The notes under the pieces were generated by a model. It was not told the DNA's origin. It did no database searches and saw nothing but the letters and a program-made list of their open reading frames with translations. Below, piece by piece: positions 19,414 to 21,750 of a DNA stretch of 25,722 bases. The position numbers and the translations under genes were made by a program. Source of the DNA: a virus; IMG/VR virus record IMGVR_UViG_3300021964_000459, positions 1 through 25,722 of that record; one strand, 5' to 3'. Positions within the stretch are counted from its first letter, which is position 1. Each line of letters opens with the position of its first letter.

Positions 19414-20715
19414 ATGTTTTTATCAGAAAACTTACAAGAAAAGTGGCAACCGATTCTAGAACACTCCGATTTACCAAAAATCGAAGACAACTACAAACGT
19501 GCTGTTACTGCTGTTATCCTTGAAAACCAAGAGAATGCTCTAAACGAAGACAGAGCTCAATTGGCGGAAGCAGCACCTTTAAATGCTACTGGTAGTTCAA
19601 TTTCTAATTGGGACCCGATTTTAATCTCCCTAGTTAGAAGAGCTATGCCAAATCTCGTTGCGTACGACATTTGTGGCGTTCAACCTATGACTGGCCCGAC
19701 AGGACTTATCTTTGCTATGAAAGCAAGGTATAACGACTATCCATCAGAATCTGTTGTAAATAAAACTGAAGCAATGGGAATCAACGAAGTTGAGACACGT
19801 TATTCTTCAGAAAACCAAACAGTGGCTGACGGTTTACAAGCTACGGCTAACTCAGACCCTTTTAACTCTGACTATGCAACTCATACTGGTTCAGGTATGA
19901 CAACTGCAACTGCAGAAGCATTAGGTGATGTTGAAGCAACCAACGGTTTTGCTCAGATGGCATTCTCAATAGAGAAAGCAACTGTGACTGCAAAATCAAG
20001 AGCATTAAAAGCAGAATACACATTAGAACTTGCACAAGACCTCAAAGCAATCCACGGTCTTGACGCTGAGTCAGAACTTGCGAATATTCTTTCATCAGAA
20101 ATTCTTGCAGAGATTAACAGAGAAGTTGTTAGAACAGTAAACGTACAAGGTAAAACAGGTGCATCAGCAACTGCAGTGCCTGGTACTTTCAACTTAGACG
20201 TTGATGCAAACGGAAGATGGTCTGTTGAGAAATTCAAAGGTTTATTATTCCAAATCGAAAGAGAATCAAACACAATTGCTAAAGAAACAAGAAGAGGAAA
20301 AGGAAACTTTATCCTATGTTCTTCAGACGTAGCAAGTGCATTGTCAATGGCGGGTGTATTAGATTACGCTCCTGCTCTTTCAACTAACCTAAACGTAGAT
20401 GACACAGGCAATACTTTTGCTGGTGTTCTTAACGGAAGAGTTAAAGTATATGTTGACCCTTATGCAGGTGTTGACTACTTAACAGTAGGTTATAGAGGTA
20501 CTAACCCTTATGATGCTGGTCTTTTCTATTGCCCATACGTTCCATTACAAATGGTTCGTGCAGTAGGTGAGAACACATTCCAACCAAAAATCGGTTTCAA
20601 AACTAGATATGGTATGGTTTCAAATCCATTTGTCGGTACTACACCAGCAAACGGACTTGCATCAGCAGGTACTAACCAGTACTACAGAAAATTTGCAGTG
20701 TCAAACATTCTGTAA
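19414..20715 (+). CDS. 23: Major capsid protein gp23
   Basis: A 433-residue homologue of T4 gp23 (521 aa). The N-terminus LSENLQEKWQPILEHSDLPKI and the segment WDPILISLVRRAMPNLVAYDICGVQPMTGPTGLIFAMK near 66-103 are the hallmark of T4-like capsids. The C-terminus has FVGTTPANGLASAGTNQYYRKFAVSNIL. A likely gp21 cleavage site is L50-A51-E52, in AQLAEAAPL, fitting the (L/I)xE rule and removing about 52 residues. It is followed by a tetraloop hairpin and a strong terminator, marking the end of the capsid transcription unit. Confidence 0.95.
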   Translation: MFLSENLQEKWQPILEHSDLPKIEDNYKRAVTAVILENQENALNEDRAQLAEAAPLNATGSSISNWDPILISLVRRAMPNLVAYDICGVQPMTGPTGLIFAMKARYNDYPSESVVNKTEAMGINEVETRYSSENQTVADGLQATANSDPFNSDYATHTGSGMTTATAEALGDVEATNGFAQMAFSIEKATVTAKSRALKAEYTLELAQDLKAIHGLDAESELANILSSEILAEINREVVRTVNVQGKTGASATAVPGTFNLDVDANGRWSVEKFKGLLFQIERESNTIAKETRRGKGNFILCSSDVASALSMAGVLDYAPALSTNLNVDDTGNTFAGVLNGRVKVYVDPYAGVDYLTVGYRGTNPYDAGLFYCPYVPLQMVRAVGENTFQPKIGFKTRYGMVSNPFVGTTPANGLASAGTNQYYRKFAVSNIL

Positions 20716-20727
20716 GACGAAAGTCTC

Positions 20728-20743
20728 ATTACCTTCGGGTAAT
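20728..20743 (+). promoter_or_regulatory. CUUCGG tetraloop hairpin after gp23
   Basis: ATTACC-TTCG-GGTAAT: a 6-bp stem closed by a C(UUCG)G tetraloop, 13 bases after the capsid stop. UUCG loops are exceptionally stable and recur between T4 genes. Here the hairpin probably protects the 3' end of the gp23 message or assists the terminator downstream. Confidence 0.75.
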
Positions 20744-20744
20744 A

Positions 20745-21064
20745 CTAAAAAGGTCTCTTACGAGACCTTTTTTTTTGTTTAATGACTTTAATCGTTCAAT
20801 GTCTAGGGAATACCCTATTCTTTACACCGTGTCCTTCAAGTGGAGCCTTACTCCAATTTTATCTAGGTCAATAGGTAGTGACCATAAAGAAATTCGTTTA
20901 CCACACCTTCCCAATTCGTCAAAAATTTCAAGTGTTTCTCTGTTCGGATTCTATCCACACCTCACGATTATATGCCACGTCTTAATTGACTTTAACAGTG
21001 TGGAACACCTTTTCTATACGGAACAACCTCTCACAACCATCTTACTTCCGTCTCGATTTCCTAC
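20745..21064 (-). ncRNA. Putative structured non-coding RNA, opposite to all genes
   Basis: Downstream of a - strand promoter-like pair and ending at the bidirectional terminator is a ~320-base stretch. Its - strand has stops scattered in every frame and only tiny start-to-stop runs. Read on the - strand it folds into consecutive perfect stems: ACGGAA/TTCCGT (21046-21051 with 21018-21023) and TCCACAC/GTGTGGA (20998-21004 with 20954-20960). Then come GAAATT/AATTTC (20924-20929 with 20889-20894), GGTCA/TGACC (20879-20883 with 20866-20870), TGGAG/CTCCA (20851-20855 with 20841-20845) and TAGGG/CCCTA (20813-20817 with 20804-20808). It seems locally richer in G+C than neighbouring genes. I do not recognise a known RNA family. 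The 5' end is predicted, not observed. Confidence 0.5.
20747..20776 (+). terminator. Rho-independent terminator, usable in both directions
   Basis: The stem AAAAAGGTCTC / GAGACCTTTTT (20747-20757 and 20762-20772) has a TTAC loop, and the + strand T-run continues to 20776. On the - strand the same stem is followed by CCTTTTTAG, so it can also end the opposing RNA proposed at 20745-21064. Confidence 0.85.
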
Positions 21065-21070
21065 TTTACT

Positions 21071-21100
21071 AGTATACCAAAAAGTAGAGGGGATTGTCAA
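21071..21100 (-). promoter_or_regulatory. Sigma-70-like promoter on the - strand
   Basis: Read on the - strand: a perfect TTGACA (21095-21100), an 18-base spacer and TATACT (21071-21076). Transcription would start near 21064 and run toward the gp23 terminator. It is the only convincing - strand promoter I see, and it would be read by the host polymerase early in infection. Confidence 0.55.
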
Positions 21101-21101
21101 C

Positions 21102-21108
21102 CTAAATA
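21102..21108 (+). promoter_or_regulatory. CTAAATA late-like motif in a short inverted repeat
   Basis: CTAAATA lies within ACCT-AAATATA-AGGT, next to the -35 of the opposing promoter, and 50 bases before the gene at 21159. It is the likely late promoter for the small genes that follow. Late initiation here would compete with - strand early initiation. Confidence 0.45.
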
Positions 21109-21158
21109 TAAGGTAAAGAATAATCTTTACATTACACATACACACACAGGAGAAAAAT

Positions 21159-21377
21159 ATGAGTAATTCAACAAAATCGGGGTTCGAAATCAGAGCCGAC
21201 TTATTATCACAAGCAGAAGGTCTTTTAACCTCTAATTATCAGAGGGAAGTTGATGCTATCTATGCACACAACGATTCATTCCCAAATGATAAGAAACCTT
21301 TACCACTAAGAGAAATCACTGGTGAAGAGGTTATTAGAGTTGCAAGACAATTGAATGAGTTCGTCATCGAAAAATAA
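21159..21377 (+). CDS. Conserved small phage protein, 72 aa
   Basis: A short acidic, helical protein with N-terminal SGFEIRADLLSQAEGLLTSNYQREVDAIYAHN and C-terminal PLREITGEEVIRVARQLNEFVIEK. AGGAG precedes the ATG at a good distance. Proteins of this size beginning with a YEIR/FEIR-x-LL-x-A pattern are common beside gp23 in marine T4-like phages, with no known function (memory-based). Its end overlaps the next gene by 23 bases. Confidence 0.65.
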   Translation: MSNSTKSGFEIRADLLSQAEGLLTSNYQREVDAIYAHNDSFPNDKKPLPLREITGEEVIRVARQLNEFVIEK

Positions 21378-21750
21378 TATTTGTCTGTCGTGCAATTTGT
21401 GTTGTTCACAGCCGAATGAGACAATCCACCTCTTTGATAAAGAATACGAACTATTCGATGTAAAGGATATTACCTCATATGAAGGTGAAAGCTTTACACA
21501 TAGTGTGACTTTTGATAGGGGTGGTTGCACAAACCTAACACCAAATGGCATATGCAGGGTTTATGATAAACGACCATACACTTGCAGAAAATTTGAGTGT
21601 GGAGTATTAGTAAAATACAAAAAAGGTGAGTATGATTATGATAAATCCAAACGACTCATACAACTTGTTAAAAATGGTGACATAAAAGTTTGGAGAGAGG
21701 AATTTGAGAAAGACTCTATTTCACCAAAAACGGTGATGAAAAAAACATAA
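21355..21750 (+). CDS. CxxCxxCC (YkgJ-like) putative metal-binding protein
   Basis: A 131-residue protein with eight conserved-pattern cysteines: C10-x2-C13-x2-C16-C17 near the N-terminus, then C58, C67, C77 and C82 in GGCTNLTPNGICRVYDKRPYTCRKFEC. This matches the CxxCxxCC zinc- or iron-chelating domain (PF03692, YkgJ), where the RP-x-x-CR-x-F-x-C segment is typical. It probably binds a metal or an Fe-S cluster; partner and reaction are unknown. The start lies inside the preceding gene. Confidence 0.75.
   Translation: MSSSSKNNICLSCNLCCSQPNETIHLFDKEYELFDVKDITSYEGESFTHSVTFDRGGCTNLTPNGICRVYDKRPYTCRKFECGVLVKYKKGEYDYDKSKRLIQLVKNGDIKVWREEFEKDSISPKTVMKKT

Follow-up and report, generated by a model that had tools for sequence, protein, structure and literature searches.

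Does the long gap downstream of the capsid gene of this phage hold a gene of its own, and what would its product do? The window, by which we mean the whole 25.7-kb stretch of viral DNA analysed here (a T4-like myovirus record, IMG/VR IMGVR_UViG_3300021964_000459), carries a gp23-type major capsid gene on the + strand at 19414-20715 (PHROG 138, E 2.1e-160), followed on the same strand by genes for tail tube, UvsY-like, 2OG-Fe(II) oxygenase and helicase proteins. A first-pass annotation of this DNA proposed that the gap behind gp23 encodes an independent RNA of ~320 nt on the - strand. We will argue, on the evidence of related contigs, their covariation and the strand asymmetry of the pairing, that an autonomous gene for a structured non-coding RNA of about this size very probably lies there, at 20741-21067 on the - strand and convergent with gp23. 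This reading rests on a promoter and a terminator that are kept among relatives, on covarying helices and a covarying loop contact, on sequence constraint, on a fixed genomic place, and on the presence of a single full copy in each of 10 contigs.

The gap and its signals

The gap between gp23 and the tail-side genes extends over 20716-21158 and is long and non-coding, as the annotation had described it. The - strand promoter reported there is also present, at 21100-21071, with a -35 hexamer TTGACA (21100-21095), an 18-nt spacer and a -10 hexamer TATACT (21076-21071) preceded by TG, so that 11 of the 12 hexamer bases agree with the consensus. It is the best of the 15 promoter-like sites listed between 19000 and 23000, a number that is itself at chance level (shuffles 12.4, sd 3.1). 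The predicted 5' end of the RNA falls at about 21067-21064 and the 3' end in the U tract after 20747. The terminator, likewise present in the - direction, is a stem-loop at 20747-20772 with an 11-bp perfect stem and T runs usable in both directions, and it is common to gp23 (+) and the RNA (-). Adjoining the promoter, a CTAAATATAA element is found on the + strand at 21102-21111, which, judging from its resemblance, may serve the tail genes as a late promoter.

On the far side of the gap there is a small + strand protein gene (21159-21377) for which PHROG and Pfam searches give no match; of the 59 RNA loci extending to that side, 41 have a relative of it. Also near the RNA, 21355-21750 encodes a protein in which Pfam PF03692, the CxxCxxCC domain with a putative role in chelating zinc or iron, is matched at E 7.5e-08.

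It is important to point out that the window by itself says little. Six consecutive perfect-stem hairpins had been claimed, but we count four perfect Watson-Crick hairpins (arms of at least 5, loops of 3-10) against a shuffle mean of 1.96, and 32 of 300 shuffles reach four; the longer-range pairings TCCACAC/GTGTGGA and ACGGAA/TTCCGT are present as well and may have been included in the six. The folding energy of the RNA is -74.2 kcal/mol (z -1.18, with 9 of 100 shuffles equally good), and the + strand gives nearly the same z, -1.17. No - strand open reading frame of at least 50 aa exists in 20745-21100, in line with the annotation, and the interval holds one + strand frame, with a TTG start, at 20775-21116 (113 aa). 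Since promoter number, hairpins and folding are all near chance in the window, the case for the gene rests on its relatives.

Relatives, constraint and structure

Relatives were collected from IMG/VR by exact-word scans, which reach close relatives only and returned 36, 84, 44 and 71 stretches, chance matches included (17 of the 84 in the second); two of the entries, L081 and L082, correspond to the window. The first relative, L006, was a gp23 relative that matches at 89% over 344 nt, with compensating changes in the hairpins and with the promoter hexamer pair unchanged across a changed spacer. In total, the RNA is found in 70 IMG/VR contigs, which are probably marine, judging from their kin. 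Among the 66 mapped contigs, the RNA occupies this gap and converges on gp23 wherever the contig extends far enough: gp23 lies on the expected side and strand in 55 of the 55 contigs that reach it, the tail-side genes are as expected in 59 of 59, and both sides are seen in 48, with no exceptions. Both promoter hexamers are kept in all 64 loci with at least 90 nt upstream (window included), as TTGACA-18-TATACT in 58 and TTGACA-18-TATAAT in 6, over 29 distinct upstream stretches in which the middle of the spacer varies and the hexamers stay constant.

The distribution is patchy and, within the sample, restricted to one gp23 clade. Run over the entire length of 10 RNA-bearing contigs (47-154 kb), a covariance model of the RNA, R1, detects a single full copy per contig, with an additional 9.5-bit match in one of them, and it detects no copy in three RNA-free contigs of the gp23 clade. 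By capsid protein identity the closest isolates are Melnitz (66.9%), HTVC008M (64.9%) and Mosig (64.8%), whose gene order around gp23 is similar; the whole records of these three contain no copy detectable by R1 (best E 0.11, over 38 of 275 positions, in Mosig). No diverged copy appeared among the 79 other gp23 loci listed (best 13 bits, E 0.11). Blastn against 50,697 phage records found nothing beyond 13 short matches with E about 4, and against 72,556 plasmid records no match at all. A host copy was considered as well, and rejected: an exact 19-mer scan of GTDB led to a single acidobacterial contig, the flanks of which are unlike the RNA.

The gp23 tree has 93 rows, with identical rows merged and 11 loci of undetermined state left out, and RNA presence was scored on it by exact words. 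It draws on 80 of at least 600 gp23 matches, a sample that is biased for judging presence and absence. All 25 RNA-bearing rows fall in one group of 33 (support 100/99), and the three isolates sit in a separate RNA-free group of 45 rows. The RNA appears to be dispensable in places, because 8 rows of the 33-row group are without it among the matches listed. Six changes of state are needed on the tree, and well-supported branches make a minimum of two of these unavoidable.

In most relatives the RNA is conserved above the capsid gene. Among the 28 relatives, gp23 could be measured in 23, and for these the mean identity to the window is 96.2% in the 5' domain of the RNA, compared to 82.2% for gp23 DNA and 68.4% at its third codon positions. 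Two close relatives, L085 and L103, have gp23 genes that are 96-97% identical, about equal to the RNA. Over the whole RNA the identity to the window is 89-97.5%, apart from 78% in L094. The two genes have recombined: L104 has a window-like gp23 (97%), but its RNA is exactly the one found in L006, where gp23 is at 83%.

The structure was modelled on an alignment of 29 distinct full transcripts (55 contigs and the window). Ten incomplete transcripts and L110, L086, L170, L175 and L176 were left out, and the terminator ends of L088 and L115 were placed by hand. The resulting model is pseudoknotted, with 59 pairs in 11 helices, and 98.2% of its 1701 cells are paired, a figure that is favoured by the choice of the helices from folding and a covariation scan of the same alignment, where many chance pairs are also present. 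Six controls in which the partners were slid by 1-3 columns reach 33-51%. Two-sided changes are seen at 16 pairs and in 86 cells, compared to 21.1 in shuffled alignments, and none of 500 shuffles is as high; the count of further pair types is equalled in 4 of 500. When the terminator is excluded, 99.3% of 1527 cells pair as the - strand and 91.4% as the + strand.

Because related rows inflate covariation counts, we also used a tree-aware null of our own, in which the substitutions are redistributed along a tree of the 25 distinct rows. Five of 53 structure pairs then pass at E <= 0.05 (two in hairpin A and one apiece in hairpin C, P1 and P4), and the other 48 fail. With all 39,903 possible pairs tested, a single one is significant, and it lies within the structure, in hairpin C (E 0.017).

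The 5' domain (20888-21061) is closed by helix P1, in which 21061-21056 pair with 20893-20888 and one pair is A-U in 21 sequences and G-C in 8 (tree-aware E 0.028). Within it, P4 (20935-20931 with 20907-20903) has 95.2% of its cells paired and a change from C-G to U-A at one pair (E 0.033), and P3 (21004-20997 with 20961-20954) changes from C-G to A-U at one pair and from U-G to U-A at another, each in 2 of 29. Helix P2, ACGGAA/UUCCGU (21051-21046 with 21023-21018), and a tentative three-pair hairpin in the P3 loop (20990-20988 with 20981-20979) are both invariant, and covariation is silent on them. The pseudoknot helix P5 (20969-20964 with 20795-20790) is 100% paired with a single U-G change, so that covariation is compatible with the helix and does not prove it. 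As most of the 5' domain is invariant, P2, the small hairpin and P5 are predicted from complementarity alone.

The 3' part is more variable. Hairpin A (20866-20883) has one pair that is C-G or G-C and another that is A-U, C-G, G-C or G-U (tree-aware E 0.0021 and 0.0018). Three bases of its loop, 20876-20874, are predicted to pair with 20828-20826 in a pseudoknot or kissing contact, read as ACC/GGU, AGC/GCU or GCC/GGC across the sequences; the contact is 97.7% paired and two of its three pairs have two-sided changes, none at a tree-aware E of 0.05. Hairpin B (20841-20855) has two pairs with two-sided changes, is not significant in the tree-aware test, and is missing in L094. In hairpin C (20804-20817) one pair is A-U in 18 sequences and U-A in 11. 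The terminator has two-sided changes in 5 of 6 scored pairs and 88.5% of its cells paired in the MAFFT alignment.

Six of the 29 distinct transcripts have an optional 3' domain before the terminator, ~60 nt long and 94 in L094. A profile of it matches 16 loci, all of them RNA-bearing (L085 605-665, L090 3409-3469, L150 4739-4800, L094 1575-1637 and 12 others), and nothing else in the sequence compared; the conserved core is around GATARTAARGC and GATGYAGTC. A string in this domain resembles the group I intron element AAGAUAUAGUC. We rejected a group I intron, as the helix order on our own reading does not fit and no Rfam model matches.

The proposal of an independent gene is thus upheld by the promoters and the covariation of the relatives, even though the window alone is not above chance.

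Expression and possible action

In T4-like phages, early genes use host sigma-70-like promoters and late genes a TATAAATA-type element. The promoter of the RNA belongs to a class, roughly TTGACAATGnnnnnnACTTTTTnGTATACT with an 18-nt spacer, that recurs before many reading frames in the RNA-bearing contigs G001-G003 (L181-L203) and the RNA-free G011 and G012 (L204-L218). The pattern used for it was TTGACA or TTGACT, a spacer of 18 nt in which a run of T lies close to the -10, and a TATA-like hexamer. As raw counts without a shuffled control, there are 10, 8 and 8 sites in the three large RNA-bearing contigs, the RNA's own included, and 5 and 1 in RNA-free relatives. Of the 23 further sites, 22 are on the strand opposite to the RNA and 19 stand within ~320 nt before an ATG open reading frame of at least 40 codons. 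Because the class precedes reading frames, and the RNA runs opposite to the late-type capsid and tail genes, we infer that the RNA is transcribed early by the host RNA polymerase.

For the action of the RNA we suggest the following mechanism. Transcribed early by the host enzyme, the RNA would present its near-invariant 5' domain, with long unpaired stretches, as a surface on which a protein or ribonucleoprotein of the host (or an early one of the phage) docks. It would act in trans, occupying or redirecting the docked partner early in infection, framed and stabilised by its terminator, by the optional 3' domain and by the 3' hairpins, which vary more. Constraint on unpaired bases beyond what the helices need fits a conserved partner, and the sequestration of a host protein, one of the roles raised in the annotation, is compatible with the data. 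That the autonomous gene and this early, trans-acting, protein-docking mechanism hold jointly is plausible, if somewhat short of probable. As to partners, 3 of 196 reading frames of G002 occur in all three RNA-bearing contigs and in neither of two RNA-free ones, a raw count without chance control; all three encode small proteins of no known family.

The invariance of the 5' domain fits conserved base-pairing targets equally well as a protein. The RNA could then be a trans-acting antisense regulator, whose near-invariant unpaired stretches would base-pair with mRNAs of the phage or the host and so control how these are translated or how stable they are. A duplex scan over translation starts places those of a gp44-like clamp loader and a CsgG-like protein (both on our own reading) near the top in all three contigs, with the best trio reached by 1 of 60 permutations and the second by none of 60. 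However, the pairings inspected in G001, in G002 and at L200 of G003 involve the hairpin B region, a variable part of the RNA that L094 lacks. In 13 of 60 permutations, too, the gp44-like start comes out as the best target, and the starts of orthologous genes do not count as independent. On average, the duplex energy (-15.28) equals that of permuted RNA (-15.35, sd 0.34). We regard the two targets as a weak, non-independent hint that is not counted as evidence, and antisense regulation as rather unlikely. CsgG-like proteins, again on our own reading, are encoded in two RNA-bearing contigs, which fits a pelagimyophage neighbourhood, curli genes being reported for pelagimyophages in an excerpt of PMC7029224.

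Decidedly less likely is a homo-oligomeric particle, a dimer or cage of the sort suggested by analogy with GOLLD, ROOL and OLE, in which the loop contact would join copies of the RNA. The RNA is phage-borne, pseudoknotted and strongly conserved, and the covarying three-base contact could be intermolecular. It is, on the other hand, far shorter than GOLLD, many members of which exceed 800 nt, and tRNA islands are frequent neighbours of GOLLD and ROOL (both points from an excerpt of PMC12286853), but ARAGORN calls no tRNA gene in the window; a match to Rfam is missing as well.

We give little credence to a device acting mainly in cis, where - strand transcription damps convergent late transcription or insulates gp23 and the RNA is a by-product. 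The convergence with gp23 in 55 of 55 loci and the shared two-way terminator of the window would suit it, but a by-product would not keep covarying helices and a 5' domain at 96% identity. In L088, L115, L094 and L112, furthermore, gp23 is 583-650 nt from block B and not within 450, and in the three of these that were scanned (L088, L115, L094) a glutamine riboswitch intervenes. The regulation of late genes that had been suggested thus lacks direct support, as the transcript is convergent and in the window meets gp23 only at the shared terminator.

A ribozyme or ligand-binding RNA is very improbable: the 5' part is pseudoknotted and nearly invariant, as such a function might demand, yet the RNA ends in a terminator and so controls no downstream gene, unlike a riboswitch, and no known Rfam ribozyme matches, the forms with the extra 3' domain included. 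Finally, a mere coincidence of motifs or a 113-codon + strand protein gene, to which near-chance window statistics and the frame that is open in the window might point, is in our view already refuted at the sequence level by covariation, strand-specific pairing and the longest + strand stop-free stretch across the transcript, which shrinks from 105 codons in the window to 59-73 in 27 of 28 relatives (100 in L094), the frame having no PHROG or Pfam family.

Relation to known structured RNAs

The annotation had recognised no known family, and Rfam 15 (4227 models) agrees, giving no match on the window at the gathering cut-off. The best model below it is STnc50, over the terminator end (27.5 bits against a threshold of 55, E 0.013), and the forms with the extra 3' domain stay far below gathering too (best E 0.011 for L085, 0.048 for L094). 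In the stretch of G002 that carries the RNA, only tRNAs are matched. Neither 6S nor RNase P RNA is matched, whether at the gathering cut-off or with the limit relaxed to E 5, the window has no match to the glutamine riboswitch RF01739, and tmRNA is found there neither by ARAGORN nor by Rfam. By eye, there is no excess of GGA motifs as in Hfq- or CsrA-type sRNAs. A description of such an RNA was not found among the matches listed from the open-licence PMC literature.

The gap itself emerges as a site where RNA elements gather: besides this RNA, glutamine riboswitch aptamers (RF01739, single or tandem) are found between gp23 and the tail genes in L088 (10782-10898), L115 (9296-9359), L094 (1835-1898) and L009 (5381-5495). 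In the first three they lie beside but outside the new RNA, and L009 has the aptamer without it; by eye, the aptamer leads a small open reading frame in L009, L088 and L115.

T4-like phages are usually regarded as protein machines. If the mechanism suggested here is correct, a T4-like phage uses an RNA, and not a protein, for part of its takeover of the host. A conserved, free-standing structured RNA with an early-type promoter, in 70 contigs of a clade akin to SAR11/OM43 phages, would then add to marine viruses a takeover or regulatory factor of a new sort. We can tentatively envisage it as the first of a new family of phage RNAs, expressed early, pseudoknotted several times over and acting in trans by capturing a protein or ribonucleoprotein of the host. 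With the alignment, the structure and the covariance model at hand, the RNA can be searched for and tested.

Among known systems, 6S RNA and RNase P RNA are stable, free-standing structured RNAs that work with proteins; the new RNA is free-standing and structured like them, and differs in having no Rfam match. Melnitz, HTVC008M and Mosig resemble the window in capsid protein and in gene order around gp23, and model R1 finds no copy of the RNA in them. According to an excerpt of PMC9004378, Melnitz-like phages have a glutamine riboswitch and a two-piece tmRNA, which like the present RNA are non-coding and belong to marine myoviruses from one broad group; unlike these, the present RNA matches nothing in Rfam or ARAGORN and has no downstream gene. 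The manA and wcaG motifs come, in the part of PMC2864571 consulted, from marine metagenomes and T4-like cyanobacterial phages, compared to which the new RNA is a free-standing gene with promoter and terminator, and again without Rfam match. GOLLD and ROOL are presented in the excerpt of PMC12286853 as phage- or prophage-encoded structured RNAs whose function is unknown, ROOL with several pseudoknots. The likeness to GOLLD and ROOL is that of a phage-borne structured RNA, pseudoknotted as in ROOL; the difference from these two and from OLE lies in a length of ~320 nt, a promoter of its own opposite to capsid and tail genes, no covariance match and no tRNA gene in the window. The RNA thus joins phage-borne structured RNAs such as GOLLD and ROOL, and differs from them in size, setting and sequence.
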